Assembly (NCBI GenBank): GCA_021813505.1
Contig: JAKAKI010000041.1
Span: forward strand, 33,074 to 97,073
Source of the DNA: a bacterium
Lineage (GTDB): Bacteria > Zixibacteria > MSB-5A5 > WJJR01
Reading direction: 5' to 3'
DNA: 64,000 nucleotides
Positions within the stretch are counted from its first letter, which is position 1; the number at the start of each line of letters is the position of its first letter. Below the pieces are notes generated by a model that was not told the DNA's origin, searched no databases, and saw only the letters and a program-made list of their open reading frames with translations. Below, piece by piece: positions 13,301 to 42,667 of this stretch. The translations under genes were made by a program, and so were the position numbers.

Positions 13301-16300
13301 GATCCCGCCAGTGTCACTTGCGCCGCTGCGCAAGTCAGAACCTTGTCCGGACCGGCGTTTGCGTTCGGGGCCGCAATATTCTGCGTCACCAGTGCAACAT
13401 CGGTCGCGGTGCAACCATTGGCCGGATCGGTGACAGTCAGCGTGTATGTCCCGGCCGCGTCAACCAGCGGGGTTGCCGTGGTGGCGCCGGAAACGATGTG
13501 CCCGCCTGCCGATGCCGCCCAACTGAACGTTGCGCCCGGCGTGGCGGAGGAGCCGCTGAGATTGATCTGCGTCACCGAGCAAGTCAGGACCTTGTCGATA
13601 CCCGCATCCGCGTTCGGCGGTGTGATATTCTGGGTCACGATCGCCACATCGGTCGCGGTGCAACCGTTGGCCGGATTCTTCACGGTCAGCGTGTATGTGC
13701 CAGCGGCGTTGACCAGCGGCGTGGCGGTGCCGGCTCCGGAGACGATGTTGCCGCCGCCCGAGGCCGCCCAGCTATAGATCGCGCCTGGCGTCGTGGACGA
13801 ACCGTCCAGAGCCAGCGACGTGATCGTGCAGGTCAGGACTTTATCAGGTCCCGCGTTGGCATTCGTGTTGTTGATGTTCTGGGTGATCACGGCCTCGCAC
13901 GAATCCTTGCAGCCGGTCGCCAGAATGGTGACCACGACCTTCTTGTTGCCCGGTGTGTCATAGCGCGCAAATGCCGTCCCCTGGCCGGAAAGCGGCGCCG
14001 GTGACCAGGCGTAGCTGATGCCAGTCGACGGAGCCGACGACACGCTGGCCGTGGCATTGAGGCTGTCGCAGGTCAATTCATCACCCGCGCAACTGAGCAG
14101 AGGCTTCGTGATATTCTGTGTGATAACGGCGTTGCACGAGTCTTTGCACCCGGTCGCCGTGATCGTCACAATCACCCATTTGGTCCCCGGCGTGTCATAA
14201 CGCGCGTGCGCGGTGCCCTGGCCGCTGATCGGCGCCGGACTCCACACATAACTGACGCCCGTCGACGGTGTCGAAGTGACGTCCGCAGAAGCGAGCAGAC
14301 TGTCGCAGGTAAGTTCGTCACCGCTGCAGTTCAGCACCGGCTTGGTCACGTCCTCGGTCACCAGCGCGACATCGGTCGCGGTGCAACCATTCACAGGATC
14401 AGTCACGGTCAGTGTGTAAGTTCCCGGAGCATCGACGAGCGGGGTTGCAGTCGCCGATCCCGACACGATGTTGCCGCCAAGCGAGGCCACCCAACTGAAC
14501 GTGGCGCCGACTGTGGTCGATGAACCCGACAGGTTGATCTGCGTCACGGAACAATTCAGAGCTTTGTCCGAACCAGCGTCGGCGTTCGGCGGCGTGATAT
14601 TCTGCGTCACCAATGCCACGTCCGCGGCGGTGCAGCCATTGGCTGGATCGGTTACGGTCAGCGTGTATGTCCCCGCCGCGTTAACCAGCGGTGCCGCGGT
14701 CGTGGCGCCGGACACGATATTCCCGCCGGCAGAAGCGGCCCAACTAAACGTTGCACCAGGAGTGCTCGAGGAACCCGACAGATTGATCTGCGTCACCGTG
14801 CAGGTCAGGACCTTATCCGTTCCCGCATCCGCATTCGGGGCCGCCAGATTCGCTGTGACCAGCGCTGTATCTTTCGCTGTGCAACCGTTAACCGGATCGG
14901 TAACGGTTAGCTCGTAGGTTCCCGCCGCGTCAACCACCGGCGTCGCCGTGCCGCCGCCCGAAACGATATTTCCGCCCGCGCTGGCTGCCCAGCTAAAGGT
15001 GGCGCCCGGCGTGGTGGACGAGCCGCCCAGTGTCGTCTGCGGCGCGGCGCAAGTAATGATTTGGTCTGCTCCGGCACTGACGTTCGGCGGCGCGATGTTC
15101 AATGTCACCAGTGCCACATCGCTTGCGGTGCAACCGTTCGAAGGATCGGTTACAGTCAATGTGTAGGTACCGGCCGCGTCCACCAACGGCGTCTCGGTGT
15201 TAGCACCGGAAACGATATTTCCGCCGGCTGACGCCACCCAACTGAATGTCGCGTACGGTGTGGTCGATGATCCGAGCAGATAGACCTGTGTAGTCGTGCA
15301 AGTGAGCACATCATCAGTTCCCGCGTCGGCGTTGGGAGCGGCAACGTTTTGCGAGACCAGCGCCGTGTCAGCCGCCGTGCAACCGTTGGCCGGATCAGTA
15401 ACGGTCAGAACGTAGGTTCCCGCCGCGTTGACCAGCGGTGTCGCCGTCGTCCCGCCCGAGACAACGTTGCCGCCACCGGAAGCCGCCCACGAGAACGTGG
15501 CGCCCGGTGTGCTGGAGGATCCGCTCAGATTGATCTGTGTCACGGTGCAAGTCAGGATCTTGTCGATCCCGGCGCTGACGTTCGGCTTGACAATGTTCTG
15601 CGTCACCAGCGCCACGTCACTGATCGTGCAACCGTTCGCGGGATTGGTCACCGTCAGTGTGTACGTGCCGGCGGCATCGACGGTCGGCGTCGCAGTGGAT
15701 GCGCCGGAGACAATGTTCCCGCCGCCGCTCGCCACCCAGCTAAACAGCGCTCCCGGTGTCGTCGAGGATCCGTCGAGCGTGACTTGCGTCACCGTGCAGG
15801 TCAGAATCTTGTCCGGACCGGCATCGGCGTGTGTGTTGTTGGTATTCGTGGTGATGACCGCGTCGCACGAATCAGAGCAACCCGTGGCGGTGATGGTCAC
15901 GACCACCCGCTTGGTCCCCGCGCTGTTGAAGCGCGCGTTCGCGGTGCCCTGGCCGCTCACCGGTGATCCGTACCAGAAGTACGTCACTCCCGTGGACGGA
16001 GTCGAGGTCACTGTTGCCGAAGCTAAGAGACTGTCACAGGTCAGTTCGTCACCGGTGCAGCTAAGAGACGGCTTGGTTGTGCTCAACGTAACCAGTGCCA
16101 CATCGGTCGCCGTGCAACCGTTGGCCGGATCGGTCACGGTCACGGTGTAAGTACCGGCGGCATCGACCAGCGGTGTTGCCGTGCTGGCGCCCGACACGAT
16201 GTTTCCGCCCAGTGACGCCACCCAACTGAAGGTCGCGCCCGGAGTCGTCGAGGACCCTGAGAGATTGATCTGGGTCACAGCACAAGTGAGAACCTTGTCC

Positions 16301-19300
16301 GGACCGGCATCGGCGTTCGGCGCCGTTGTATTCAGTGTGACCAACGCGACGTCTGTCGCGGTGCAGCCATTAGCTGGATCGGTAACAGTCAGCGTGTAAG
16401 TGCCCACGGCATCGACCAGCGGTGTCGCTGTGGTGGCTCCCGAGACGATATTCCCGCCGCCCGAAGCCGCCCAACTGAAGGTCGCGCCCGGTGTCGTCGA
16501 GGAACCTGCCAGATTCACCTGAGTCACGGTGCAGGTCAGCACCTTGTCTGGTCCGGCATTCGCATTCGGCGGTGTGACGTTGAGCGTAACCAGCGCGACG
16601 TCGGTTGCGGTGCATCCGTTCGCTGGATCAGTCACCGTCAGCGTGTATGTCCCCGCGGCGTCAATCAGCGGTGTGGCGGTCGTCGCACCGGAAACGATAT
16701 TCCCGCCGAGTGTCGCCGCCCAACTGAAGGTCGCGCCCGGCGTCGTCGAGGAACCCGCCAGATTGATTTGCGTAACCGAGCAGGTGAGCACTTTATCAGG
16801 ACCGGCGTTGGCGTTCGGTGCCGCAACATTGAGCGTCACCAGGGCGACATCGGTTGCGGTGCAACCATTCGCTGGATCGGTAACGGTCAGCGTGTATGTG
16901 CCCGCCGCGTTAACCAGCGGCGTTGCAGTTGCGGCGCCGGACACGATGTTCCCGCCGAAGGACGCGACCCAACTGAATGTCGCGCCTGGAGTGGTGGATG
17001 ATCCGGAAAGATTTACCTGGGTGACCGAACACGTCAGAACCTTGTCCGTTCCCGCATTAGCATTTGGAGGTGTGGCATTGAGTGTGACCAGCGCCACGTC
17101 GGTGGCGGTGCATCCGTTCGCCGGATCGGTCACCGTGAGTGTGTAGGTCCCGGCGGCATCAACCAGCGGTGTCGCCGTCGTTGCACCGGAAACAATATTC
17201 CCGCCAAGCGTTGCCACCCAACTGTAGGTTGCTCCCGGCGTGGTCGAAGAACCGGCGAGATTGATCGATGTCACCGTGCAGGTCAGGACCTTATCGGGTC
17301 CGGCGGCCGCGTTCGGGGTCGCAACATTCAGCGTCACCAGTGCAATGTCCGTTGCTGTGCAACCATTCGCCGGATCGGTTACTGTCAGAGTGTAAGTTCC
17401 CGCCGCATCCACGAGCGGTGCCGCGGTGGCCGCGCCCGAGACGATATTTCCGCCCGCCGAGGCAACCCAACTAAACGTCGCACCCGGCGTTGTTGAGGAA
17501 CCGGAGAGGTTGATCGACGTTACCGCGCACGTCAAAACTTTGTCGGCGCCCGCGTTGGCGTTTGGTGCCGTCGCATTCAGCGCTACCAGTGCGACATCCG
17601 TCGCCGTGCAACCGTTGGCAGGATCGGTCACGGTAACGGTGTATGTTCCGGCGGCATTAACCAAGGGTGTGGCCGTCGCCGCGCCAGACACGATGTTTCC
17701 GCCGAAGGAAGCCACCCAACTGAACGTGGCACCCGGGGTGGTGGAGGAACCTGCCAGATTGATCTGAGTCACCGCGCAAGTCAGGACTTTGTCCGCACCG
17801 GCGTCAGCGTTGGGAGCGGTGACATTCAGCGTCACCAGCGCGACGTCTGTCGCCGTGCATCCGTTCGCAGGATCGGTAACGGTGAGTGTGTATGTTCCGG
17901 CTGCATCAACCAGCGGTGTCGCAGTCGCAGCGCCGGAGACGATGTTCCCGCCGGCCGACGCGACCCATGCAAACGTGGCGCCGGGAGTCGTCGAAGACCC
18001 GCTGAGAGCCACTTGAGTCACCGCGCACGTCAGAACCTTGTCGACGCCCGCATTGGCGTTTGGCGCCGCGACGTTCGACGTCACAATTGCGGCATCCGTC
18101 GCCGTGCATCCGTTCGCTGGATCGGTCACGGTGAGCGTGTAGGTGCCGGCGGCGTTCACCAGCGGCGTCGCGGTGGTCGCGCCCGAAACAATGTTTCCAC
18201 CGGCCGAGGCGACCCAGCTAAACGTCGCGCCGGGTGTGGCCGATGAACCGCTCATGTTAATCTGTGTTACTGCGCAGGTCAGGACCTTATCAGGACCTGC
18301 ATTGGCATTCGGGACGGTCACATTCTGCGTGATCACTGCGTCACACGAGTCCTTGCAACCAGTGGCTATGAATGTCACCACGACCTTCTTGCTGCCGGGG
18401 GCATTGTATCGGGCAACTGCCGTTCCCTGGCCGCTCGCCGGGGCTGGAGACCAGAGATAGCTCACGCCAGTCGATGGAGTGGACGTCACTGTCGCCGACG
18501 CTTCCAAACTGTCGCAGGTCAACTCGTCGCCGCTGCAACTCAAAACGGGCTTCGTCATGTCGACCGTGACCGCTACAGTGTCGTAATCATCGGCGCTGCA
18601 TGGGTCGGTCGCCTTGACAATGATCGTGTAGCTGCCTGCCGCCGCCGGGGTAAAGCAGATCTTGTTGTTCAGAATATCGATCGTGGCTCCGGCCGGAGCA
18701 CTAACCAGTGCCTCAACCAAACCCGCCAGCCCATCGGGATCAGACAGCGCGTAGGTGACACAGATCTGGGCGGCAATGCACTGGGCTACTGTCGTGTCGT
18801 TGCCGAACGCGATGAGCGGTGCGCTGTTGGCCGTCTTGGTGACAATTACCGTGTCCTTATCAATCACCCCGCACGAGTCGGTCACCGTCACGATGATTGT
18901 GTCAGGATCGGAAGTCGTGGCCGAGTAGTAGACCGAATCACCCGACAGTGTTCCCTTGCTCGTCGTCTTTGACAGGATGTTGTTGTCGGGGTCGCTAAAT
19001 ACGAACGGCTTGACCGTTATCGTCGCCGGGAGCGAGCAGAGGAAAACACTCTTGTCGGCCGGGCCGGTCACGTCGGGAGGCGAACTAAGATGCACGGTTA
19101 CACAGACCGTGTCGACGTCATCATCGTCCTCTGCAACACCGTTCAAGTAATCGTCGTCGTCCAGCTCGAAGACAAAACAGTAGACCCCCGATGTGTCCGG
19201 CGTGAAGCACCGGACGGAGTCGAATGTGCTGTCGCATGTGAGCTTCGGCATGTATCCCGCTCCCGACAGCTTGGATAGGTACAGCCTGTCGCGGTCGTCA

Positions 19301-20856
19301 TCTTCGCCGTGGACGCGGATGCAGATCTCTTGTGGTGCACAGAGGTACACCGTGGTGTCGCCCGAGTGGTCACCCGAAAGAGTCAGCCGCGGAGGACGAT
19401 TCTGGCAGATCGGGAATGCATGATGCCCCGTGGGCGCGTTCGATGGGCTGGCCACCGTTTGCTCGCCGTCCGAAGCCGTGATATAATACTGAATACTGTC
19501 CCCGGTGATCAGAAGCTGGCTCGATGGCACCGAAGCGCAAAAGAGGCTGTCCGTGCGCGCCATCGTCACCGACGTGTAAGAAACGGAATTGGAATTTCGG
19601 TAAAAGAGGTTCACTGTCAGCCCGCTGCCGGGCGTGTCGCGGTCGGTTACATAAGCGCAAAGCGGGACCGTTGTTCCCCAGTTCACGCATGTGGAATCGA
19701 GCGCGATCGTTGCCGGAGTCCGCGTGATCACCGGCGGCGCTTTCTCGCAATAGCTCCCGGTATCGCACGGCGTGCAACTGCCGTCGCCGTTCCTGTGGCA
19801 CACGATCAAATCGTGGCAGCCGCCGTTTTGCAGCGTGTCGGAGCTGTTGTAGCAAATCAGATAGCGGCTGCACAGCCGGGTCTTGATCGCGTCGTAGATC
19901 GAATCCAGGGACGTGCCGGTCGGCGCGTGGTAGTGTGCTCCGCCGGTTGCGTTGGACAATCTGATCAGGTACGTGGGATCGAAGTTGTTGCCCAGGGAGA
20001 TGTTGTAAATCGGAATGCCCGCGCCGAGAGCAAGATTCACGATCAACGTCGAGTCGTCTGCGAATCCATCGTTGAGGCCGTCGGGAGTTCCACGGCCACC
20101 GCAGTTCTTGCTGTTATTTTCCATTCCGTCCGTCAGTGCAATGACCGCCTTGCTGCCGAACTCCGTCGTGGACAGGCTTGCGCCTCTCCAAACGCCATCG
20201 AAATAAGCGGTGCGTCCTCCCGACGTCAGGGCGTTGATGGAATTGATCAGCAGCGTTGTGTCACTGGTGAAGTTGCGAACCACCGTGTAGCAGTCCGAGA
20301 ACTTTACCACGGCGGTGCGATCGTACATGCTCATCTGCCGCACGAACCGAATGGCGGCGTTCTTGGCAGCCGTCAACTTGCCCCCATTGGCCATGCTGCC
20401 GGACACATCGATGACCAGGCAGGTCGCGGTGTGGCATGAGTCGCCTGACAATTGCTGCACGGTGAATGGCCCGACCGCCGCCCCGTCCTGCTTGACACAG
20501 AAACTGTCGGCCGTCAGTCCAGTCACCGGTATGCCGGAACTCGTGAGGACGTCCACGTACGTGCACATCTGTGGGAATCGGCTCGGATCAATCTGCCCCA
20601 GTGAGACCGAACTGACCAACCCGTCGGCGGACAGAATCGTGGCGCCGGACACGGGTGTGGCCATGCTCATCGCACTATTGATTGCCGCCGTGTCCAGTAT
20701 GTACTCATCGTCGCTTGGACCGGCAATCACGCCAGCACTGGCCAAAGTGACAAAGCTGAGCGTGAACAAAGCTACGGCAACTGCAGGAACCACTCGCCCC
20801 AGGCGCGTGTATTGCTGCAAACGCCGGCGGCTTGGTGTACTGGGCAGTCGTCTCAT
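10336..20856 (-). CDS. giant secreted protein: vWA, Ig/PKD-like repeats, cohesin, dockerin, YPNPFN tail
   Basis: About 3,506 residues. The signal peptide has a basic start and core VVPAVAVALFTLSFVTLASA. Next is a von Willebrand A domain (about 140-330) with the MIDAS motif DVSGSMA. Ig/cadherin-like Cys-containing domains lead into residues about 765-2825, with twenty 83-residue repeats (AGPDKVLTC ... GTYTLTVTDPANGC) and five 79-residue repeats (GDELTCDS). Each 83-residue unit carries two cysteines, probably a disulfide. A cohesin-like domain (about 3020-3190), dockerin-like calcium loops (DLNLDGVANSVADAVLF and DINDDGIVLTVADLVYL), and a C-terminal domain starting LLQNYPNPFNAGTVIQF and ending KKMILVK follow. 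This resembles a surface adhesin exported by a type IX-like route. The start at 20856 follows GAGGT and directly precedes the signal peptide; an open frame continues upstream to 21012 without support. Confidence 0.9.
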   Translation of the reverse strand: MRRLPSTPSRRRLQQYTRLGRVVPAVAVALFTLSFVTLASAGVIAGPSDDEYILDTAAINSAMSMATPVSGATILSADGLVSSVSLGQIDPSRFPQMCTYVDVLTSSGIPVTGLTADSFCVKQDGAAVGPFTVQQLSGDSCHTATCLVIDVSGSMANGGKLTAAKNAAIRFVRQMSMYDRTAVVKFSDCYTVVRNFTSDTTLLINSINALTSGGRTAYFDGVWRGASLSTTEFGSKAVIALTDGMENNSKNCGGRGTPDGLNDGFADDSTLIVNLALGAGIPIYNISLGNNFDPTYLIRLSNATGGAHYHAPTGTSLDSIYDAIKTRLCSRYLICYNSSDTLQNGGCHDLIVCHRNGDGSCTPCDTGSYCEKAPPVITRTPATIALDSTCVNWGTTVPLCAYVTDRDTPGSGLTVNLFYRNSNSVSYTSVTMARTDSLFCASVPSSQLLITGDSIQYYITASDGEQTVASPSNAPTGHHAFPICQNRPPRLTLSGDHSGDTTVYLCAPQEICIRVHGEDDDRDRLYLSKLSGAGYMPKLTCDSTFDSVRCFTPDTSGVYCFVFELDDDDYLNGVAEDDDDVDTVCVTVHLSSPPDVTGPADKSVFLCSLPATITVKPFVFSDPDNNILSKTTSKGTLSGDSVYYSATTSDPDTIIVTVTDSCGVIDKDTVIVTKTANSAPLIAFGNDTTVAQCIAAQICVTYALSDPDGLAGLVEALVSAPAGATIDILNNKICFTPAAAGSYTIIVKATDPCSADDYDTVAVTVDMTKPVLSCSGDELTCDSLEASATVTSTPSTGVSYLWSPAPASGQGTAVARYNAPGSKKVVVTFIATGCKDSCDAVITQNVTVPNANAGPDKVLTCAVTQINMSGSSATPGATFSWVASAGGNIVSGATTATPLVNAAGTYTLTVTDPANGCTATDAAIVTSNVAAPNANAGVDKVLTCAVTQVALSGSSTTPGATFAWVASAGGNIVSGAATATPLVDAAGTYTLTVTDPANGCTATDVALVTLNVTAPNADAGADKVLTCAVTQINLAGSSTTPGATFSWVASFGGNIVSGAATATPLVNAAGTYTVTVTDPANGCTATDVALVALNATAPNANAGADKVLTCAVTSINLSGSSTTPGATFSWVASAGGNIVSGAATAAPLVDAAGTYTLTVTDPANGCTATDIALVTLNVATPNAAAGPDKVLTCTVTSINLAGSSTTPGATYSWVATLGGNIVSGATTATPLVDAAGTYTLTVTDPANGCTATDVALVTLNATPPNANAGTDKVLTCSVTQVNLSGSSTTPGATFSWVASFGGNIVSGAATATPLVNAAGTYTLTVTDPANGCTATDVALVTLNVAAPNANAGPDKVLTCSVTQINLAGSSTTPGATFSWAATLGGNIVSGATTATPLIDAAGTYTLTVTDPANGCTATDVALVTLNVTPPNANAGPDKVLTCTVTQVNLAGSSTTPGATFSWAASGGGNIVSGATTATPLVDAVGTYTLTVTDPANGCTATDVALVTLNTTAPNADAGPDKVLTCAVTQINLSGSSTTPGATFSWVASLGGNIVSGASTATPLVDAAGTYTVTVTDPANGCTATDVALVTLSTTKPSLSCTGDELTCDSLLASATVTSTPSTGVTYFWYGSPVSGQGTANARFNSAGTKRVVVTITATGCSDSCDAVITTNTNNTHADAGPDKILTCTVTQVTLDGSSTTPGALFSWVASGGGNIVSGASTATPTVDAAGTYTLTVTNPANGCTISDVALVTQNIVKPNVSAGIDKILTCTVTQINLSGSSSTPGATFSWAASGGGNVVSGGTTATPLVNAAGTYVLTVTDPANGCTAADTALVSQNVAAPNADAGTDDVLTCTTTQVYLLGSSTTPYATFSWVASAGGNIVSGANTETPLVDAAGTYTLTVTDPSNGCTASDVALVTLNIAPPNVSAGADQIITCAAPQTTLGGSSTTPGATFSWAASAGGNIVSGGGTATPVVDAAGTYELTVTDPVNGCTAKDTALVTANLAAPNADAGTDKVLTCTVTQINLSGSSSTPGATFSWAASAGGNIVSGATTAAPLVNAAGTYTLTVTDPANGCTAADVALVTQNITPPNADAGSDKALNCSVTQINLSGSSTTVGATFSWVASLGGNIVSGSATATPLVDAPGTYTLTVTDPVNGCTATDVALVTEDVTKPVLNCSGDELTCDSLLASADVTSTPSTGVSYVWSPAPISGQGTAHARYDTPGTKWVIVTITATGCKDSCNAVITQNITKPLLSCAGDELTCDSLNATASVSSAPSTGISYAWSPAPLSGQGTAFARYDTPGNKKVVVTILATGCKDSCEAVITQNINNTNANAGPDKVLTCTITSLALDGSSTTPGAIYSWAASGGGNIVSGAGTATPLVNAAGTYTLTVKNPANGCTATDVAIVTQNITPPNADAGIDKVLTCSVTQINLSGSSATPGATFSWAASAGGHIVSGATTATPLVDAAGTYTLTVTDPANGCTATDVALVTQNIAAPNANAGPDKVLTCAAAQVTLAGSSTTPGATFSWVAFNGGHIVSGGMTATALVDAAGSYSIVVTDPTNGCIAVDTALVTQNVTVPNASAGGDKVLTCIVTQVTLDGSSSTAGATFNWVASGGGHIVSGGATATPLADAPGTYTLTVTDPVNGCVASDVTIVTQNIAKPALSCSGDEITCDSLMATASVASTPSTGVTYLWSPAPASGQGTAFARYNTPGNKTVFVTITATGCTDSCIAVINYNVNGANANAGPDKVLTCLITQVTLNGSSSTPGAQYSWAASGGGNIVSGGTTPTPVVNAGGTYTLTVKNPANGCTATDDAVVTVTPNSVPTISFGADINLMQCTQTRVCVPYSVSDPDGMNGLVESFVSGPPGATIDTAQNEMCFIPIGTGTYTLVGKVTDGCGISDYDTVNVIITCIQKPELTPPVLRFNYLCSGLDTTCVPLSIMVGPNDQICTITATGFPGVVSISPTQICVACDETTYDTVTIIVTACSGLADTVTSLVTGACSSCLVTVSVGGPDALAPVSQKSATQRATPAGTIPALSGQTVTMPIMIDGLSVDIGGFDLLLCYDPTALRLTGVNRGAAIAEWEYFTYRFGSTGNCGGPCPTGMIHLVALADLDNGPALHPSPASYRPVGSIADLTFVVTSDRNFIDQCIAINFCSFDCTDNIISSKTGDTAFVEIDGIEPACLSNPKPGFRPRPAVCFSGGTIGIIPPPDDRGDLNLDGVANSVADAVLFSRYFIEGIGVLSSDPALKAVQILSTDINDDGIVLTVADLVYLIRIITGDAQPFPAGGNPKLAPFAQKAEATVQISDHRALVSTNSLAEVGAALLTFRYSGLTPGTPALSAAASQMVLTSKATNGELRVLLAPATSVKGARIAAGVNEILSIPVTGEGTIELTDIQMSDAQGALLSTSVDRGIPGEYTLLQNYPNPFNAGTVIQFSLKEQTDWKLSVYNITGQTVRTFAGNGQGSVQVAWDGADQSGQPLASGVYFYRLEAKAFTATKKMILVK
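12386..18556 (-). repeat. intragenic 249-bp and ~238-bp repeat array
   Basis: Inside the giant gene, twenty copies of a 249-bp unit and five of a roughly 238-bp unit lie in tandem. Spacing of the GTGCAACC motif, for example 13409 to 13658, confirms 249 bp. The order is one B unit, nine A, B, six A, two B, four A, B, one A (read with the gene). Protein sequences are highly alike while third codon positions vary. Confidence 0.9.
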
Positions 20857-21037
20857 GGAACTTACCTCGGTGAGGTCTGAGTCCCCGGTCGCATCGATCG
20901 GGGTCATGGTGATGGGGCGAAAATTCGTGAAAAAGCCAATGAAAAACGATAGAGTACCACCGGTACTCCGCAGGGAGCGGGGGCGAGGTTCCATCATGTC
21001 AACGCGTCTCACAAGTTACAGGGTTGAAACTCCTGAT

Positions 21038-21467: not shown

Positions 21468-24400
21468 TTATTTCATGAGCACCATCTTCTTGGTTGCCGT
21501 GAAGTCACCGGCTCTCAAACGCGCGAAGTACATTCCCGACGCCAGGTCGTATCCCTCGTCGGTTTTGGCATTCCACTCGACCGTTACGATTCCGGCCTCG
21601 TTTTCGCCCGAGAAACTTCTGACCGGCTGGCCCAGTACATTATAGATTGTCAGGTCCCACTTCGATGCCGTGCCCAAACTGAACCGGAGCTGCGTCGTGG
21701 CGTTGAACGGATTCGGGTAGTTCTGCTCCAGACCGAAGTTGCGCGGAACACCGCTGCCGCTGGCGGCCATTTCCAAACCGACCAGATCACCGTGCGATGT
21801 TGCCGCCTGGGCGTCCTCAATTGTCCATTCGCCGCCGCCGTCCATCCGTACCGTGAACAACAGGTGCGGGCCACTCGCCAGTTTCATGCCTGGGTTTCTG
21901 GCGACGAGAAGGGCGCGCAACTCTCCGTTCTCGATACTCTGGAAAGGCGTCAGACCGCCCAGGTCGGAGGACCACTCGATCGCCCCGAGAGTTCCTGCGT
22001 TGGCTTTGATTCGTACAAAGACACCGCCCAGTTCGGCATCAGAGGTCACCCAGATTCCCAGCTTCCCAGCCTCGCGCTCGGCACGTATCGACGCTTGATG
22101 TTCCGGCGTAGCTACGGCCTTCGGGCCGCCCGGACATCCCTGCATGATGGCATCATTATTCATGACGCGGATCATGAAGACCAGGTCTGACAGCGACAAT
22201 ACCAGTCCGTCGCAATTGACGTCCGTGGCCAGGATCTGATTCTCTTTGTAGATCGGGTCGAAGACCTTGGTGCCGTAGATAAAGTAGTTGCTGAACAAGA
22301 CCACGTCGGCCACCGAGTTCGCGATTCCGTCCAGGTTGACGTCGCCACGATCATCGGGCGGCGGGACAATGCAAATACTGCCATCACAGAACTGAATTCG
22401 CTTCAGCGGGACATTCTTCGGACTGTTGAAGCATGAGTCCGCCACTCCGGTGAACGAGGTGTAGAGGGTGTCACCACTCCGGTTGGAGATGACGTTATCA
22501 CCGCAGGCATCCGAGCAGAATCGAATATAGCCGCACTGATTGATAAAGAGCCGGTCGGCGGTCACATAGAACGTGATCGCGATCATCGGCCCCTTGGGCA
22601 GGTAGGCGCTCTCCGAAGGATGCGGCGAACCGTTATTCATGTCGGCGATCCCAATGAGTCGCAGGCTTCCCGCGCCGCAGGGGTTGCAGCCGGTCGAGGC
22701 GCCCGTGCGGTAGGTGAAGTATTCCCACTGCGACAGCGCCGTGTCGGCGGCGGCCGCGGAGAATTTGAGGACGGTCGGGTCGTAACATATCAGGAAGTTG
22801 TATCCGCCCATTTCCATCACGCGATAGCCGCGGATCTTCACAGTCGCGTTTCGTCCGCTCAGCGAATAGATCGTGTCGATACAGACCTGGAAGAGCGAAT
22901 CCGGCGGCTCGATTCTCACGCAGATCGTCGCCGTGTCACGTGCCGAAAGTCCGCACGAGTCGCTCGTGGCGAAGATGAAACGGTAGCAGCCCGTCGTATC
23001 CGCCAGAAAACAATGCGTCGCGTTGATCGGGGAATGGCTGACCTGGCGCGCAAACTCTCCGGCTCCTTCGATCATCTGCAGGTCGAATAACTGGCCTGCG
23101 TTGGGATCACTGGCCGGGACCGCAAAGCAAATCTGCGTCGGCCTCAGGTAGAGCGCCGTGCTCGGCAACCCGTTGATCGAGACTGTCGGGGGCGCGTTCA
23201 TGCCGACCAGAACACACATCGTCTTTGAGGCCGTCGCCCCGCACGAGTCTTCGGCGGTGATCTGGAAACAGTAATTGCCTGCTGAATTCGCCGTGAAACA
23301 GATGATCCCGGTCAACGGATCGATCGTCCCGTCACCGGCACTGAGATACACGCGCTTCATGTTCCCATCAGGATCCGATGTCGACACGCCGCCCACACAA
23401 ACTGTGCCGGGGCTGCAGGCCGTGACCGACTTCGTGGGTGGGGCCGTAACGACGGGTGTGCGATTGAATCGCGCCGTGACATTGACTGTGTCACGTGCGG
23501 TCAGACCGCAGGAGTCCGTCGCCACGATGATGATGCGATACACACCACCTGTGTCGGCGTAGAAGCAGACACTTGTGTCCGCAATATTGAACGTGCCGCC
23601 CGACAGCACGGACGCGGTCCACTTCGGACGGTCGTCAGTGATGTTCACTTTGAAGCAGATCGAACCCAGGCCGCAAACATTCTGCGTGAAATCCGGAGGA
23701 GCTTTCACGACGGGCGGTGAGTTGATATCAAAGGTCACACAAATGCTGGCCGTGTCGGCGAAACAGCAGGGGTCGCGGACGATCAACCGCACACAATCCG
23801 TCCCGCTGGTGGCCCGGGATACGCAAAGCATCCCGTTGCGAATCACCCCGTGGTCCGTGGAGACGACCATGGAGTCGCCATCCGGATCACTGATCTGGAA
23901 CGGCACGCACACCGTCTCCGGCGCGCATTGCGTGAAATTCGCGGCGGGGGAGATCGTAATCGACGGCGCCCGGTTCATCCTGATTGTGACCCGGAATGTG
24001 TCGGTCACGGCGTCGCCGCAGGCATCCTGGGCGTGGAACACCCACTGATAGTTGCCGGCCACGATCGGCGTGAAGCACAACGTCGAGCCATCCCAATTCG
24101 CATCCCCCAGGCTGGCCGGACCGCACGATATCAGATTGTAATCGGGATCGAAGCAGCTCGCCGGGAAACAGAGCTCCCTGGGGAAACACAGGAACAGCGT
24201 CGTGTCGTTCGGCACACGGATCTGCGGCGGCGTGTTGCGAATGATCTGAATCGCCAGATTGCAGGTGTCGGCGGCACCGCACGAATCGCGCACGATGAGT
24301 TGCGAGCCATAAAGGCCGCTGGTATCCACCGGCAGGCAGACTTTGAACAATCCCTTGAACGCCGGCGCCACCGTACCGTACGACACCGCTGCACTCATGA

Positions 24401-27400
24401 AGTTGCTGTCCGGGTCGGCGTAGGCGACAATCACGCAGATCGTCGTGTCATGGCAGATCCGGTAAACATCGGTCTGCGGACAAACGATGACCGGCGCATT
24501 GTTCACACGCGACCAGACGACCACGAAGGTCGTCTCGGAGCCGCACAAGTCCTGGGCCACCACACCGGTTACGTACATTCCCGGCCCCGACACCTGGAGA
24601 CAAAGCGTGGTGTCGGCCATGTGCACCACGCCGCCATTCAGGCCGGAAAGCGTGAGCGGCGGACAACTGCTCTCCGCGATTGAGAACTTGACACACACGT
24701 TCCCGCTGCCGCAGAATCGCGTCTTGATCGTATCGGGCGCAGTCGGGCGCGGTGTGGGATTCGGCGCGGTCTGCACGCAGAGCATCGCCGTGTCGGCTTT
24801 GCCGCACGGATCGGTGGCGATGATCCGGCCGCACGTCACCTGCTGCGCCGACGCGACCACACAGAACTGATGAGTGGCTGTCTTCACGATGCCGCCGATA
24901 TTCGTGATCACCAGCGGTTTCCCTTCGGGATCCGTCGCCGTGTAACTGACGCAGACCGTTTCCCGGTCGACGGCATTGAACTTGGCGCTGTCGGACAGCG
25001 TGATCATTGGGGCGACATTGTAGGCAACTGTGATATTTGCGGTATTCTGGTTTGTCAGGCCGCAAGCATCCGTCGCCACCAACGTGACCTTGTAGATGCC
25101 GGCTGTGTCCGGAGTAAAGCAGAAGGTGCTTCCGTTCGCGGTTCCGGCTTTCGAGCCGGTCGCCACACAAGTCGATAAGTTGTTGTTGGGATCGGTGCAG
25201 TTATAAGGAATGCAGATCTGCTGAGGACTGCACAGCGTCAGCACCGAATCCCGAATATTGGCCACTGGCGCCGAGTTGAGTGTCATCGTGAACGATGACG
25301 TGCAACTGGCTGTAGCACCGCAGGAATCAGACACGGTGACCGTCACGGACTGAGGACCGGTCTGGCTGATCACCATGCAAACCGAATCGGTGGAGCCTGC
25401 AACGGCCTGCCGGACAATCTGTGTCCCCGCCGCGTTGATGTTCACATTGAGATTCCCGCCATCGGCATCATTGATCGTGTAGCGAACACATACCTCCGTA
25501 CCCGCGCACACGGCGGTTGAGGCCGGTGGCGTGCAGGTTACCGATGGCGTGCTGTTCATGCTGACCGAGACTGTGGCCTGCGCGGTGTCGGAATAGCCGC
25601 AGTTGTCGCTCACCGTCAGTTTGGCCGTGTAATTCCCGGTCGCGGAAACCGCCAGGCCGACAGTCGAATCGGACAGGCGCAATGCCCCGGTGCCCACAAC
25701 CGCGTACTGCAGTGGCCGCCCCTCGGGGTTCACGACAGAGAACTTCACGCGCACCGTGTCCGCATGGCACAGCTTGACCGACATGTTGTTCATCATCAGC
25801 GTCGGCCCGACCGTTGCCACCGACGAGGCGTTGATTGTCGCCATCGCCGTGTCGGCGTAGCCGCAGTTGTCCGTGGCCATCAGCGTCACCGTGTACACTC
25901 CCGCTGTGGTCACAACCCGTCCGAGAGTTGAGTCGGAAAGCCGCAGGATACCTGTCCCGAGGACGGTCAATGTCAAAGGCCGCCCCTCGGGATTGGAAAT
26001 CGAGAACGGCACGCGGACCGTGTCGGGCTTGCACAGCGCCTCGGTTCTATCGGCCATGGTGATGACGGGCGGAGTGCTCCCGACGGATATAATAGAAATT
26101 GTGGCCTGGGCGGTATCGGCGTTGCCGCAACTGTCGGCGGCCACCAGCTTCACGGTGTAATTGCCGGCCGCCGTAATTGCCCGGCATATCGTCGAATCGG
26201 AAATTCGAATGGAACCGGCCCCAATCACTGACAACTGCAGCGGATGTCCCGAAGGATTCGAAATCGAAAACGGCACACAGACCGTGTCAGGACGGCACAG
26301 GCTCGTGGTCACACCGGTCATCTTCACATTCGGCGGGCTGCTCTCGCCAAAGCTGACCACCATGGTGTCCGTTCCCACCGCGCCACACATGTCAGACGCG
26401 CGGAAGACAACGTTGATGACCTCCTTGCCCGCTGGAGTATAGCACCATGTCTGTCCGTCATAGGTTCCGGAACAATTCCAGATGACGCAACTGGCGAGGT
26501 TTCCATCGGGATCATAGCAAGTAACCGGACCAAAACAGAAGGGGCCGATCTGGCAGACCTTCAACGTTTCGGGGGGGACCCCTTGAATTGACGGCGGCGT
26601 GTTAAACCGTGCCCGAATCTCCGTTACCGTTGTTTCGGGTCCGCACGAGTTGGACGCAATCAGCTTTACCTGGTATGTGCCGGGGGAATTCACCTTGTAG
26701 CACACGGTCTTGGTGTTGGCGTTGTACACGGCGGGCGCCACGGCGGAAACCGTGATCGGCGTCGTGCCGGTCGTCGAGATCGGCATACACAACCAGCCTG
26801 CCGCACACAGGGCGGTATCAATTACCGATCGCGCGATGATGTGCGCCGGTTGATTCACCGTCACTTTGAAGAAGACCCGGACCGAATCATTTCCGCCGCA
26901 TTGGTCGGTCGCCACCATGCTCACGTAAGAGCTGCTCGAACTGCTCACGTACAAGCAAAGCGTGGAGTCTTGCAGGCGGATGAACCCCGGCGATGACGCC
27001 TTCAATTGCGCTATGGGGCAACTGGCAATTATGTGGAATGGCACCGCAATTGTATCCGGATGGCAGACCACTACAGTGTCGTAGAGCTTTATCGAGATGT
27101 CGATGGTATTTGGTGTGAGCGAACTGGCCAGAGTGGGATCCGGGGCTGGGCCGGCTGACTTACTCGCAATCGGCGTGGCCAGTTCAGAAGTCAGGCTCGA
27201 CTTCGTCGCGATGCCTTTGGCGGCCAGTCCGGTCCCGTCAGACGTGGACGGAACGTGGACAATCGCTACCAAATCATTGAAATCCGCATCGCCCGATGCC
27301 ATATCCTCCCAGCAGAGCATGTACTCACCGGGCTCCGGCGACGGGAAGACTTTCAAATGAGACTGGTGGTCGCTGTTGAGTGCCTTGTCGGAGTACCACA

Positions 27401-27866
27401 CTGTGCCATCATCGCGGCTGAGATACCATCCCAGCGCGTCCGCCTTCAGCAGGGTAAACGCCACAGAGTCGGCGGTCGTGGCGCCGCCAGGGATCAGCGC
27501 GAGGGTGTCATTTGGAGAGCTGATCGGATACCAGCCGAGGTTGTCGGCGCCACCCAGTCCCGACGACTTGTATAGCAGACGCACCACAACCATGCCAGGC
27601 GTAACCGGGAGACTGGAGACGGCGAGCTGGCCCTTGGATGCTGAGACGCCCCAGCCCAATTGATCGAGGATCTGCTGCACTGACGGCTCTGCCGGATAGT
27701 ACCCGGCCGCCAGACGCGTCAGGGAATCCGAAGCGGCTCGATTGGCGGCGGGCACCTGTGCGGCAAAAACCGGCGTAGCAAAGACACATGTTCCGGCCAG
27801 GATCAAAAGCGAGATCCCGACCAAGGCAATCGACTTCGACAAATGATTACACAAGTGCCCTCCCAT
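21468..27866 (-). CDS. giant secreted protein: DUF4114, Ig-like repeats, cohesin, dockerin, YPNPFN tail
   Basis: A 2,132-residue secreted protein. The signal peptide core is ALVGISLLILAGTCVFA, cleaved near VFAAQ. Residues about 90-206 resemble DUF4114, with YSDKALNSDHQSHLKVF and CWEDMASGDADFNDLV. About sixteen Cys-rich Ig/cadherin-like domains follow (about 270-1650), each with a motif like LCRPDTVCVPFSISNP and a closing SCG or NCGYADTA. A cohesin-like domain (about 1660-1810), two dockerin-like loops (DVNLDGIANSVADVVLF and DVNCDGLVLSLSDLVFM) and a tail starting LEQNYPNPFNATTQLRF and ending KKMVLMK close it. The last three modules parallel those of the 3,506-residue protein, so both probably share an export or anchoring route. 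The ATG at 27866 has only a weak ribosome-binding site but sits right before the signal peptide. Ligand unknown. Confidence 0.9.
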   Translation of the reverse strand: MGGHLCNHLSKSIALVGISLLILAGTCVFATPVFAAQVPAANRAASDSLTRLAAGYYPAEPSVQQILDQLGWGVSASKGQLAVSSLPVTPGMVVVRLLYKSSGLGGADNLGWYPISSPNDTLALIPGGATTADSVAFTLLKADALGWYLSRDDGTVWYSDKALNSDHQSHLKVFPSPEPGEYMLCWEDMASGDADFNDLVAIVHVPSTSDGTGLAAKGIATKSSLTSELATPIASKSAGPAPDPTLASSLTPNTIDISIKLYDTVVVCHPDTIAVPFHIIASCPIAQLKASSPGFIRLQDSTLCLYVSSSSSSYVSMVATDQCGGNDSVRVFFKVTVNQPAHIIARSVIDTALCAAGWLCMPISTTGTTPITVSAVAPAVYNANTKTVCYKVNSPGTYQVKLIASNSCGPETTVTEIRARFNTPPSIQGVPPETLKVCQIGPFCFGPVTCYDPDGNLASCVIWNCSGTYDGQTWCYTPAGKEVINVVFRASDMCGAVGTDTMVVSFGESSPPNVKMTGVTTSLCRPDTVCVPFSISNPSGHPLQLSVIGAGSIRISDSTICRAITAAGNYTVKLVAADSCGNADTAQATISIISVGSTPPVITMADRTEALCKPDTVRVPFSISNPEGRPLTLTVLGTGILRLSDSTLGRVVTTAGVYTVTLMATDNCGYADTAMATINASSVATVGPTLMMNNMSVKLCHADTVRVKFSVVNPEGRPLQYAVVGTGALRLSDSTVGLAVSATGNYTAKLTVSDNCGYSDTAQATVSVSMNSTPSVTCTPPASTAVCAGTEVCVRYTINDADGGNLNVNINAAGTQIVRQAVAGSTDSVCMVISQTGPQSVTVTVSDSCGATASCTSSFTMTLNSAPVANIRDSVLTLCSPQQICIPYNCTDPNNNLSTCVATGSKAGTANGSTFCFTPDTAGIYKVTLVATDACGLTNQNTANITVAYNVAPMITLSDSAKFNAVDRETVCVSYTATDPEGKPLVITNIGGIVKTATHQFCVVASAQQVTCGRIIATDPCGKADTAMLCVQTAPNPTPRPTAPDTIKTRFCGSGNVCVKFSIAESSCPPLTLSGLNGGVVHMADTTLCLQVSGPGMYVTGVVAQDLCGSETTFVVVWSRVNNAPVIVCPQTDVYRICHDTTICVIVAYADPDSNFMSAAVSYGTVAPAFKGLFKVCLPVDTSGLYGSQLIVRDSCGAADTCNLAIQIIRNTPPQIRVPNDTTLFLCFPRELCFPASCFDPDYNLISCGPASLGDANWDGSTLCFTPIVAGNYQWVFHAQDACGDAVTDTFRVTIRMNRAPSITISPAANFTQCAPETVCVPFQISDPDGDSMVVSTDHGVIRNGMLCVSRATSGTDCVRLIVRDPCCFADTASICVTFDINSPPVVKAPPDFTQNVCGLGSICFKVNITDDRPKWTASVLSGGTFNIADTSVCFYADTGGVYRIIIVATDSCGLTARDTVNVTARFNRTPVVTAPPTKSVTACSPGTVCVGGVSTSDPDGNMKRVYLSAGDGTIDPLTGIICFTANSAGNYCFQITAEDSCGATASKTMCVLVGMNAPPTVSINGLPSTALYLRPTQICFAVPASDPNAGQLFDLQMIEGAGEFARQVSHSPINATHCFLADTTGCYRFIFATSDSCGLSARDTATICVRIEPPDSLFQVCIDTIYSLSGRNATVKIRGYRVMEMGGYNFLICYDPTVLKFSAAAADTALSQWEYFTYRTGASTGCNPCGAGSLRLIGIADMNNGSPHPSESAYLPKGPMIAITFYVTADRLFINQCGYIRFCSDACGDNVISNRSGDTLYTSFTGVADSCFNSPKNVPLKRIQFCDGSICIVPPPDDRGDVNLDGIANSVADVVLFSNYFIYGTKVFDPIYKENQILATDVNCDGLVLSLSDLVFMIRVMNNDAIMQGCPGGPKAVATPEHQASIRAEREAGKLGIWVTSDAELGGVFVRIKANAGTLGAIEWSSDLGGLTPFQSIENGELRALLVARNPGMKLASGPHLLFTVRMDGGGEWTIEDAQAATSHGDLVGLEMAASGSGVPRNFGLEQNYPNPFNATTQLRFSLGTASKWDLTIYNVLGQPVRSFSGENEAGIVTVEWNAKTDEGYDLASGMYFARLRAGDFTATKKMVLMK

Positions 27867-29361: not shown

Positions 29362-30741
29362 CTACGGACAATTGCCCGGATAGGGTACGCACAGACAAGG
29401 ATTGCAGTATGCCGGGCCGTTCTGGAAGGTAGTCTCGATCATCCTCAGGACATCGAACACGTTGTCGATACCATTGCAGTCAACATCGCCCCGATCCACA
29501 TGCGGGCAAGTCGCGTCAATCGGCGGCTGGGGACCATTCTGGAAGATGTATTCGATTTCGTACAGGATGTCCTGCACGTCAAGCACGGCATCCGCGGCGG
29601 TGTTGCCCTGTTCGCTGCAATCGCACGGGGGCGAACAGTTGAGGAGCACGGAAGCGCTGCCGGCGCCGTTATTCGCGGTCGCCAGATCCAAATCGCCGTC
29701 GCCGTCAACATCGGCCGCGGCGAGGGACATCGCGTCGGTGCTCGCGGGGAAGGTAACCGCCGTGGCGAAATTCCCGTGCAACAAATTCTGGATGGCCGAT
29801 ATACTGCCGCTCACCCTGTTGGCGCAGACAATATCCGGGTGGCTGTCCCAATCGAAATCGCGCGCGACCACGGAATACGGGGCCGTACCTACGGGCTTGT
29901 GAGTCGCCGGCGTGAACATTCCGGGATTCACGTTCAGGAGAATAGAAATCGAATTCGCGGCTGCGTTGGCCGACACCATATCCAACGCCCCGTCTTCGTT
30001 CAAATCCGCCGCACAGACCGCGACGGGCCCACTCTCAACATGAAAGACAGCATGAAAGAGCGCGAACGACCCATTTCCCTGGTTGGTGAGGAGTACAATG
30101 TCGCCACCGGACGAATCCGCCACAATGATATCAATCGCGCCGTCGCCATCCATGTCTGCCGCGAATGCGCCCCGTGGATTATTGCCCACGGGGGTCTGGA
30201 CCGGTGATGCGAATGTGCCTGCCCCGCTATTTTTGAGCACGGATATGCGGGCAAGATTGCCATTCGTCACGGCCAGATCAATGTCGGCATCGGCATCGAG
30301 ATCGGCCGCCACCACCGCGCGTGGATCAGCATTGGCTAAGTAATTGAAGGCCGGCGCGAATGTCCCAGCACCGTTGTTTTTGAGGACCGAGACGGTGCCA
30401 CCGAGTTGGTTCGCGACCGCCAGGTCCATATCGCCGTCATTGTCGAGATCCGCGATTGCGACCCAGGCGGGCCCGTCGCCAACACGGTACTGGACCTGTG
30501 CCCCGTACGTGCCATCGCCGTTGTTCAGGAATACTGAGATGCTGTCGCTTCCAAAGTTGGCCACGACGAGATCTGGTTTGCCGTCCCCGTTAATATTGCC
30601 GGTTGCAACGGAACTTGGATTCAGCCGCGCCGCATAATCGACCGGCGCTTCGAAACAAAGACCCCCTGCGATCGCCTGGCTCAAAGCCACAAGCGACGCC
30701 AAGGCGACGCACGCTGACGTGACACTCCACCTTGCCTTCAT
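29362..30741 (-). CDS. secreted FG-GAP/VCBS beta-propeller protein with dockerin-like C-terminus
   Basis: A 459-residue exported protein. After a signal peptide (core CVALASLVALSQAIAG) come seven FG-GAP/VCBS repeats spaced about 45-50 residues, each with a calcium loop such as DLDNDGDMDLAVAN and a strand pair like ISVFLNNGDGTY, giving a likely seven-bladed propeller. Residues about 380-459 hold dockerin-like segments, AVLDVQDILYEIEYIFQNGP and DVDCNGIDNVFDVLRMI, and several cysteines. Unlike the three other dockerin-bearing proteins in this window it has no cohesin domain and no YPNPFN tail, so it may dock to, or be exported differently from, them. The ATG at 30741 starts the signal peptide. 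Probably extracellular binding or structural; ligand unknown. Confidence 0.85.
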   Translation of the reverse strand: MKARWSVTSACVALASLVALSQAIAGGLCFEAPVDYAARLNPSSVATGNINGDGKPDLVVANFGSDSISVFLNNGDGTYGAQVQYRVGDGPAWVAIADLDNDGDMDLAVANQLGGTVSVLKNNGAGTFAPAFNYLANADPRAVVAADLDADADIDLAVTNGNLARISVLKNSGAGTFASPVQTPVGNNPRGAFAADMDGDGAIDIIVADSSGGDIVLLTNQGNGSFALFHAVFHVESGPVAVCAADLNEDGALDMVSANAAANSISILLNVNPGMFTPATHKPVGTAPYSVVARDFDWDSHPDIVCANRVSGSISAIQNLLHGNFATAVTFPASTDAMSLAAADVDGDGDLDLATANNGAGSASVLLNCSPPCDCSEQGNTAADAVLDVQDILYEIEYIFQNGPQPPIDATCPHVDRGDVDCNGIDNVFDVLRMIETTFQNGPAYCNPCLCVPYPGNCP

Positions 30742-41092: not shown

Positions 41093-42667
41093 ATGGACGA
41101 AGCCAAACGCTCGAATTCACGGCGGCAATCACCGTGGTTCCGCATATCGATTCTCTGCTTGTGTTCGCTTTTGGCTGGTGCAACTCTCGCGAGCGCCCAG
41201 GCTCCCTATCGAATCTGCGTGGTCGGGATCGACACAACCGGCCAGCCGGTGTTGCCTCCTGCGGTTATCCATGCCCCGTCCGGCGGGTTTGTCCGCGTCG
41301 GCGTTTGGATCGATCCGGCCGGTGGTTCACCGGCAGGGATCAAGAGTTTTGATCTGCTGTTGTGTTACGATGCCAACGTCCTGTCCCGCCTGGCTGTGTT
41401 GCGGGGGAGCGGACTGGCGAGCGATTGGGAATTCTTTTCGTACCGGTTTGATTCGACCGGGCAGATTCGGCTGATCGGAAGCGCCGACTTGCCGGGCGGC
41501 CCGACACCGGGCGATGCCGCGTTTGACCCTCAGGGAATCATCGCAACAATCGGCTTCTATGTGACCGCCGAGGCGGCACAAGTTGGCACGTGTACCGATC
41601 TGTCCTTCTGCTCGTTTGCGTGTGGCGACAACGATTTGATGTCGCGCTACGGCGACACTTCGTACACCCCCACCGGTGTGGGCGTGACCCTTGGCCCGGG
41701 TTATGATCCCGGCCATTGCAAGGTCGGAACTCGCGGCGGCCGCGTCGCGCGGACCGATTTCTGCCCCGCCCAACTCTGCATCGATTCGTCGTTCATTGGA
41801 TGTGGCGACGTTAATCTGAATGGAATCCGTGGTGAGATCGCGGACATAATTCTGTTTGCCCGGTACTTCGTTTATGGCCCGTCGGCCTTCGAGCCCTTCG
41901 TACCGATACCATTCCCCTGGGAGCAGCTCGACTGTGACGGAGATGGCCACGTTGGCGTGTCCGATCTGGTCATGATGATCCGCATGTATCTCGTTGGGCT
42001 GCCCATCAGCCCCGGCGGCAGTTTCAAACACTCGGCGCAACCCGCCTCCGCCGGCCTGTCATGGCAGATTACCGATGGTGCGCTGAGGATCCGGACGACA
42101 TCCGAAGTGCCGATTGGCGGCATTCTCGTGACTTACCGTAACGATGGGTATGATCTCGGAGCGGCGACCACCATAGTTGATTCCCGGATGCAGGTCCGAT
42201 CCGCCTCCGCGCAGGGATTCTACCGAATTCTCATTCACCCCGATCCGAATAAGGCAGGGGGAGTGATACCGGCTGGATCAAACGTGATCGCTACCGTGCC
42301 GATCAACGGCAATGGCACCCTCGAACTCGTTGGCCAGGAGGCGTGCGATTCCTACGGCTGCCCGATAACTCTCAGCGCGAGTGCTCAACTTCCGCAGGGA
42401 TTTGGCTTGTTGCCGAATTATCCCAATCCATTCAACGCCGGAACTATTATCCCCTTCCAGTTGAATGGCGAGTCGGACTGGACGCTAACGATCTACAATG
42501 TCGCCGGCCAGACCGTGCGCACGTTCGAGGGGCACAGCGCCGGGCTCGCGCAGATTGAATGGGACGGCACAACATCGGCAGGAACTCCGCTTGCCAGCGG
42601 AATCTACTTCTGCCGCCTGATGGCGGATCAGAACCATTCCACACGCCGAATTGTGTTGATGAAGTAA
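41093..42667 (+). CDS. secreted cohesin/dockerin protein with YPNPFN tail
   Basis: A 524-residue secreted protein that is a stand-alone version of the C-terminal module of the two giant proteins. Signal peptide core: ISILCLCSLLAGATLASA. A cohesin-like domain (about 40-220) contains IKSFDLLLCYDANVLSRLAV and EFFSYRF, as in the giants. Dockerin-like loops follow (DVNLNGIRGEIADIILFARY and DCDGDGHVGVSDLVMMI). The tail starts LLPNYPNPFNAGTIIPFQL and ends RRIVLMK. A GGAGG site precedes the ATG at 41093, and a strong promoter lies at 41021. It is a monocistronic gene, convergent with the benzoyl-CoA cluster. Presumably secreted by the same pathway as the giants and able to make cohesin-dockerin contacts; that is inference. 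Confidence 0.87.
   Translation: MDEAKRSNSRRQSPWFRISILCLCSLLAGATLASAQAPYRICVVGIDTTGQPVLPPAVIHAPSGGFVRVGVWIDPAGGSPAGIKSFDLLLCYDANVLSRLAVLRGSGLASDWEFFSYRFDSTGQIRLIGSADLPGGPTPGDAAFDPQGIIATIGFYVTAEAAQVGTCTDLSFCSFACGDNDLMSRYGDTSYTPTGVGVTLGPGYDPGHCKVGTRGGRVARTDFCPAQLCIDSSFIGCGDVNLNGIRGEIADIILFARYFVYGPSAFEPFVPIPFPWEQLDCDGDGHVGVSDLVMMIRMYLVGLPISPGGSFKHSAQPASAGLSWQITDGALRIRTTSEVPIGGILVTYRNDGYDLGAATTIVDSRMQVRSASAQGFYRILIHPDPNKAGGVIPAGSNVIATVPINGNGTLELVGQEACDSYGCPITLSASAQLPQGFGLLPNYPNPFNAGTIIPFQLNGESDWTLTIYNVAGQTVRTFEGHSAGLAQIEWDGTTSAGTPLASGIYFCRLMADQNHSTRRIVLMK

Follow-up and report, generated by a model that had tools for sequence, protein, structure and literature searches.

A cohesin-dockerin module with a T9SS sorting tail in Zixibacteria as a possible cell-surface docking receptor

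Module genes in the window and anatomy of the module

The window analyzed here is a stretch of 64,000 nucleotides (contig C89:33074-97073) from a genome assembly of 3.89 Mb in 95 contigs, with an estimated completeness of 97%. It contains three genes whose products end in the same module (Table 1). The smallest encodes a protein of 524 amino acids from the annotated start, or 569 if an ATG further upstream is used; it begins with a Sec-type signal and ends with a YPNPFN tail. On its own, this protein reproduces the last ~440-490 residues of two giant proteins of 3558 and 2132 amino acids. In a search of its own genome, it matched the C-terminus of the former (38% identity, query 33-524, E 2.6e-81) and of the latter (38% identity, query 85-524, E 6e-72) far above chance, in agreement with the initial annotation, which had described it as nearly identical to the end of both giants. 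Stand-alone copies of 507-533 amino acids recur in related genomes. The repeats that follow the N-terminal VWA domain of the 3558-aa protein are Ig_7/PKD-like, ~80 amino acids long and near-identical, and look recently amplified. Upstream of both giants, on the same strand, lies a gene overlooked by the initial annotation, which encodes an FG-GAP protein that ends in a dockerin and is a candidate ligand of the module.

Table 1. Coordinates of module genes, their domains and a dockerin-tailed neighbor in the window
Feature	Position	Strand	Description or evidence
524-aa stand-alone module protein (P0003)	41093..42667	+	signal peptide (residues 1-36), cohesin, dockerin, second cohesin-like domain, T9SS tail
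Cohesin-fold domain 1, 524-aa protein	41207..41782	+	residues ~39-230; AlphaFold2 and Foldseek; own cohesin HMM 116 bits
Divergent dockerin, 524-aa protein	41804..41998	+	residues 238-302; profile-profile with C-terminal dockerins
Domain 3, second smaller cohesin-like beta-sandwich, 524-aa protein	42044..42382	+	residues ~318-430; AlphaFold2 and Foldseek
T9SS type A sorting tail (YPNPFN...), 524-aa protein	42413..42664	+	residues 441-524; TIGR04183
3558-aa protein	10336..21012	-	VWA domain, ~20-25 Ig/PKD repeats, C-terminal module
Cohesin domain 1, 3558-aa protein	11233..11745	-	own HMM 195 bits
Module dockerin, 3558-aa protein	10996..11214	-	109 bits
Second cohesin-like domain, 3558-aa protein	10618..10980	-	99 bits
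T9SS tail, 3558-aa protein	10339..10596	-	TIGR04183 42.1 bits
2132-aa protein	21468..27866	-	Ig/PKD-like repeats, C-terminal module
Cohesin domain 1, 2132-aa protein	22365..22862	-	177 bits
Module dockerin, 2132-aa protein	22143..22349	-	108 bits
Second cohesin-like domain, 2132-aa protein	21759..22103	-	56 bits
T9SS tail, 2132-aa protein	21471..21731	-	TIGR04183 56.2 bits
459-aa FG-GAP beta-propeller protein	29362..30741	-	C-terminal "free" dockerin, without T9SS tail; FG-GAP_3 E 2e-57
C-terminal symmetric dockerin of FG-GAP protein	29398..29610	-	free-dockerin HMM 54.6 bits

The module consists, in this order, of a cohesin-fold domain (cohesin 1), a divergent dockerin, a second and smaller cohesin-like sandwich, and a T9SS sorting tail. 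The initial annotation had named cohesin, dockerin and tail, and these parts stand, but the second sandwich had escaped notice. An AlphaFold2 model built on 91 aligned modules showed four folded parts over the full length (pLDDT 87, pTM 0.68), and its comparison with solved structures in Foldseek returned cohesins as the main matches, as the annotation of a cohesin-like part implied. Cohesin 1 has the predicted jelly-roll beta-sandwich fold of cohesins and was aligned to 1g1k with a TM-score of 0.86 on the target, 2.5 A and a probability of 1.00, while the best overall match of the full model was the type II cohesin dyad 3l8q. Matches of the module included the cellulosome scaffoldin structures 3l8q, 3kcp and 4fl4, and 2xdh of Archaeoglobus fulgidus. 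The Pfam Cohesin model (PF00963) remained below threshold on the 524-aa protein (14.2 bits, E 0.053, cut-off 24.1), exceeded it on the 3558-aa protein (24.7 bits with neighbors in frame), and was found at E<=1e-3 in 19 of the 91 module members. A phmmer search of the 524-aa protein against the PDB returned spurious WD40 matches, FlgD for the tail and nothing else. The tail itself was recognized by TIGR04183 in 87 of the 91 members (E<=1e-3) and above the cut-off of 23 bits in all three window proteins (38.4 bits in the 524-aa protein), which classifies them as type A cargo of the T9SS and confirms the YPNPFN tail reported for each.

The dockerin of the module is homologous to type I dockerins (PF00404): its profile matched that of the C-terminal dockerins found elsewhere in these genomes, which Pfam does detect, with 91% probability (E 9e-7), and the dockerin-like part that had been proposed was thereby supported. 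The best dockerin match in the PDB was 3ul4_B (E 0.049). It is nevertheless not a typical type I dockerin, defined by two 12-residue loops of the form D1-x-N3-x-D5...D12 and recognition by Pfam, since it keeps the ligand pattern but has loops of 13 residues in most copies (13 in loop 1 and 12 in loop 2 of the 524-aa protein). Its two halves are 25% identical, versus 55% between the halves of the C-terminal dockerins, whose loops have 12 residues. The Pfam dockerin model made no call on the 524-aa protein, and Dockerin_1 was called in only two of the 91 modules, both of which carry an extra C-terminal dockerin. A short conserved linker (PPPDDRGD/DSIDxRGD) precedes the module dockerin.

When the dockerin and the second sandwich were folded alone, the model reached a pLDDT of 90.8 and a pTM of 0.88, which predicts a rigid pair, as two domains not fixed to each other would by arithmetic give only ~0.6 from the larger one. 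The 18 best PDB matches of this model were all cohesins (TM-score on the target 0.44-0.60), and the second sandwich is therefore cohesin-like in fold. Profile-profile comparison detected no sequence homology between cohesin 1 and this domain, so that the label of a second cohesin refers to fold only.

Copies in the genome and spread across Zixibacteria

The genome-wide count of the module, which the initial annotation had suggested, gave five closely related copies that have a tail, a sixth that has diverged, and a tandem pair that is lipoprotein-like and tailless. Near-full-length matches of the 524-aa protein were the protein itself, both giants, a 960-aa protein encoded just beyond the window (C89:29611-30963) and a 1005-aa protein on contig C56; some 50 further proteins of the genome share only the T9SS tail with it. 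The lipoprotein-like pair is encoded by two neighboring genes at C89:104.3-106.4 kb (open frames of 460 and 466 amino acids) with the same cohesin and dockerin, and a canonical lipobox (VSSC) was found at one start and a weaker one (EFGC) at the other. The diverged copy, encoded on C56, is a 906-aa protein in which Pfam detects two cohesins (56 bits) and one dockerin (24.0, cut-off 22.9) and which ends in a T9SS-type tail; standard models thus confirm the combination of cohesin, dockerin and T9SS in this genome. Pfam-type cohesins occur at seven sites. The genome also encodes the T9SS core (SprA/Sov; SprA 641 bits, cut-off 200) and the PorU sortase (610 bits, cut-off 420). The initial annotation presupposed other such proteins and type IX genes in the genome, and both were found.

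Beyond this genome, a model of the module cohesin alone matched 101 of 111 Zixibacteria genomes. In a closer set of 38 genomes, those bearing the module had medians of 8 modules, 60 C-terminal dockerins and 37 tails. A scan of named genomes, for which a model from a four-row alignment was used, matched almost exclusively metagenome-assembled genomes of Candidatus Zixiibacteriota (also named GN15); the other labels (Calditrichaeota, Ignavibacterium, FCB group and an unnamed bacterium) may be misnamed bins. All 113 full modules (91 after clustering at 85%) had the same order, and their dockerin was followed by a median of 213 residues. The order cohesin-dockerin-sandwich-tail was kept in 116 of 143 architectures, many of the remainder being cut by contig ends. 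The cluster of two giant genes and a gene for a ~1000-aa module protein is kept in order in two related genomes (G007:C6 and G003:C15) and partly in three others (G001, G004 and G008).

Variants of the module were also observed, such as tandem modules and a C-terminal dockerin in place of the tail; among the loci L115, L142, L194, L195 and L197 are modules with an ordinary C-terminal dockerin instead of the T9SS tail, and tandem modules on one chain. In addition, four closed open reading frames encode dockerin, sandwich and tail without a cohesin, which weakens the idea that cohesin and module dockerin are inseparable. Zixibacterial proteins with a cohesin and a dockerin on one chain number more than 100. 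In the literature searched, no publication joining Zixibacteria and dockerin was found, and nothing there seems to describe a T9SS-anchored unit of four fixed parts that spans a phylum.

C-terminal dockerins and their co-occurrence with the module

Dockerins in this genome extend far beyond the modules. Pfam-type sites numbered 62 at E<=1, of which 16 were above the cut-off alone, and a phylum-specific model detected 105. Among ~30 dockerin open reading frames inspected, most ended 1-12 residues past the dockerin without a T9SS tail, and a module-type sandwich and tail were present in only one, itself a diverged module. The carriers in a sample of 20 comprised five subtilases, one M1 peptidase, one weak M28 peptidase and a lipase-like protein, in addition to beta-helix, Ig/cadherin-like repeat and propeller-like proteins; no glycoside hydrolase was found among these 20. 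Dockerin-tailed genes lie also between two module genes on C56 and near the lipoprotein pair. Over 80 named loci, the flanks of the module contained 19 dockerin-tailed open reading frames against 6.5-8.8 expected, a two- to threefold enrichment that is weak evidence, as genes for surface proteins cluster anyway.

Two side observations concern these genes. A secreted family of ~265-325 amino acids recurs (L058, L060, L062 and L067 in this genome, and L202:5463-6257), in which an N-terminal sandwich with the motif 'EIDT.C...NH..F' precedes a C-terminal dockerin; it received no Pfam or NCBIfam name where scanned. On contig C90 of this genome (L201:1117-8155), the gene of a T9SS-tailed protein of 1810 amino acids is followed by two small dockerin-tailed genes, which makes the group a candidate receptor-ligand operon; ahead of its tail, the protein has a cohesin-like stretch (47 bits in one scan, absent from the full-protein scan).

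C-terminal dockerins were detected in 106 of the 111 Zixibacteria genomes. Both they and the module were present in 101 genomes, neither in five, dockerins only in five and the module only in none (Fisher p 2e-6, kinship ignored). In the 38-genome set, both were present in the same 32 genomes and absent from the same six, while SprA was found in 37 and T9SS tails in all 38. The six genomes without both fall into two families and have at least 113 tails each, except one half-complete bin; because presence and absence are clustered phylogenetically in this way, they may reflect very few events. In G009, G010, G019, G025 and G032 (families f3 and f4), no dockerins or module cohesins were detected next to at least 113 T9SS tails. 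The genomes lacking both features are thus among the richest in tails, and ~100 or more tails per genome were found in lineages without the module and in those with few dockerins. An inverse relation between dockerin and tail numbers did not hold as a general trend, since a few families account for it (rho -0.43 overall, -0.16 in module genomes and +0.24 without the tail-rich families). The five genomes with dockerins only (G045, G047, G048, G105 and G106; 18-52 sites) weaken the idea of the module as sole receptor of C-terminal dockerins, since in those genomes it cannot be the only one.

A docking receptor, rival readings and known systems

The reading that we favor, at a probability of about one half, is that the module is a T9SS-anchored docking receptor at the cell surface for dockerin-tailed proteins. 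The Sec signal and the T9SS tail would carry the module protein through the outer membrane, where a PorU-type sortase, for which the gene is present, would fix it to the surface. Ahead of the tail, cohesin 1, the divergent dockerin and the second sandwich are predicted to form a compact unit in which the dockerin packs against the second sandwich, and this predicted packing suggests that the internal dockerin is mainly structural, as a calcium-stabilised joint. The exposed cohesin 1 would capture proteins ending in symmetric dockerins, of which the genome has ~105 sites; subtilases, peptidases of the M1 and M28 types, and lipase-like, beta-helix and FG-GAP proteins are among them. In the giants with their Ig/PKD repeats, the socket would sit at the foot of a long rod or adhesin; the 524-aa protein would be the socket by itself, and the lipoprotein-like pair would be anchored by a lipid. 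The match of cohesin 1 to solved cohesins and the Pfam hits in a fifth of the modules (19/91) support this reading, as do the phylum-wide co-occurrence of module cohesin and C-terminal dockerins, their receptor- and ligand-like numbers, and the proximity of dockerin-tailed genes to module genes. Further support comes from the typical appearance of the C-terminal dockerins, which the module dockerin lacks, from the dockerin open reading frames that mostly end without sandwich and tail, and from the exchange of the anchor, with a C-terminal dockerin standing in for the tail in several proteins and a lipobox-like start in two. Against it, the passage of dockerin-tailed proteins across the outer membrane without a T9SS tail is left unexplained. 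A more tentative extension is a two-tier surface delivery, in which a few T9SS-sorted, pre-assembled cohesin-dockerin-cohesin sockets, each with its own dockerin permanently docked on the second cohesin, might hold ~100 dockerin-tailed proteins and so replace individual T9SS tails.

The main rival is a structural stalk, in which cohesin 1, dockerin and second sandwich are Ig-like and EF-hand spacers that form a rigid base beside the tail and have no binding partner beyond their own chain. The nearly invariant order of the parts, the conserved linker, the rigidity predicted for dockerin and sandwich, and the full-length pTM, which may mean that cohesin 1, too, is held partly in place, are all compatible with it; it leaves unexplained, however, the joint gain and loss of modules and C-terminal dockerins while the T9SS persists, and the retention of dockerins at ~100 sites, and we consider it rather doubtful. 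The initial annotation had instead proposed a head-to-tail assembly, in which each module dockerin would be bound by cohesin 1 of a different protein, so that a fibre or lattice arises and the 524-aa protein acts as its linker or cap. Module cohesins and dockerins do occur at nearly 1:1 (seven and seven in this genome), and genes for several of the module proteins form a single cluster of conserved order. No positive evidence for such a fibre emerged, and it is unlikely given the predicted packing of the module dockerin on the second sandwich, which it keeps even where the cohesin is missing, and the far greater number of typical C-terminal dockerins elsewhere. The low internal symmetry and 13-residue loops of the module dockerin, its near absence from Pfam calls, and the fixation of every partner to the cell by its own tail also speak against it. 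With ~8 modules per genome alongside dozens of plug-ended exported proteins, a system of surface sockets is probably the better description than a self-building fibre. Quite improbable, too, is that the C-terminal dockerins have another receptor, either the second cohesin-like domain or a Pfam-type cohesin, and that cohesin 1 serves a different ligand. The dockerin-only genomes and the two above-threshold Pfam cohesins of the T9SS-tailed 906-aa protein would fit such a case, but the small second sandwich shows poor conservation and is predicted to hold the dockerin already, and Pfam-type cohesins are few.

Cohesin-dockerin assembly is best known from the cellulosomes of Gram-positive anaerobes. 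Scaffoldins with cohesins and a dockerin, such as CipA of C. thermocellum and ScaA/ScaB of A. cellulolyticus, make the presence of both on one chain unsurprising. The module resembles them in this respect, in the fold of its cohesin and in the C-terminal dockerins of its presumed ligands. It differs in having a T9SS tail rather than an SLH or sortase anchor, in bearing only one or two cohesins per protein, and in the divergent dockerin set between two cohesin-like domains; the sampled dockerin proteins, among which peptidases were prominent and glycoside hydrolases absent, also differ from cellulosomal cargo. The statement of the initial annotation that cohesin and dockerin on one chain are unusual does not hold, given the Zixibacterial proteins counted above and proteins of ANME archaea with a dockerin plus several cohesins (PMC9012536). 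As in these archaea and in Archaeoglobus fulgidus, cohesin and dockerin proteins occur here outside cellulose degradation, and as in ANME, some proteins bear both. The archaeal systems have archaeal envelope and S-layer anchoring and no T9SS, and a fixed four-part C-terminal unit is not described for archaeal proteins in the consulted part of that source (PMC9012536).

The nearest published proposal is a putative cellulosome-like complex in Ca. Stygibacter (Cloacimonadota), with one 3755-aa scaffoldin bearing tandem cohesins and CBMs, a conserved C-terminal domain proposed for surface attachment, and dockerin-tailed peptidases and glycosidases (PMC8542988). The module shares with it a cohesin protein with a presumed C-terminal surface-attachment domain and dockerin-tailed enzymes, and the receptor logic is therefore not new. 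In contrast to that single scaffoldin, Zixibacteria have ~8 separate proteins with a fixed unit; what appears new is this unit of four parts, its occurrence across the phylum and the internal docking that the model suggests. If the docking receptor were confirmed, plug-and-socket assembly would be a general way to organise the cell surface, here T9SS-anchored, phylum-wide and more proteolytic than cellulolytic in look, and dozens of unnamed exported proteins per genome would gain a function. A dockerin pre-packed on a cohesin-like neighbor in the same chain, as modeled, would be an unusual structural use of the pair, and the binding of cohesin 1 to C-terminal dockerins is a directly testable question.

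Two other features of the window were recorded. At 31161-34269 (+), between the cluster of the giants and the gene of the 524-aa protein, overlapping frames encode a dCache histidine kinase and a sigma-54 response regulator of the NtrC type. At 5864-8428 (+), an 854-aa fusion joins a galactose-1-phosphate uridylyltransferase/HIT-like N-terminal half to a starch/glycogen synthase catalytic half (GT5).
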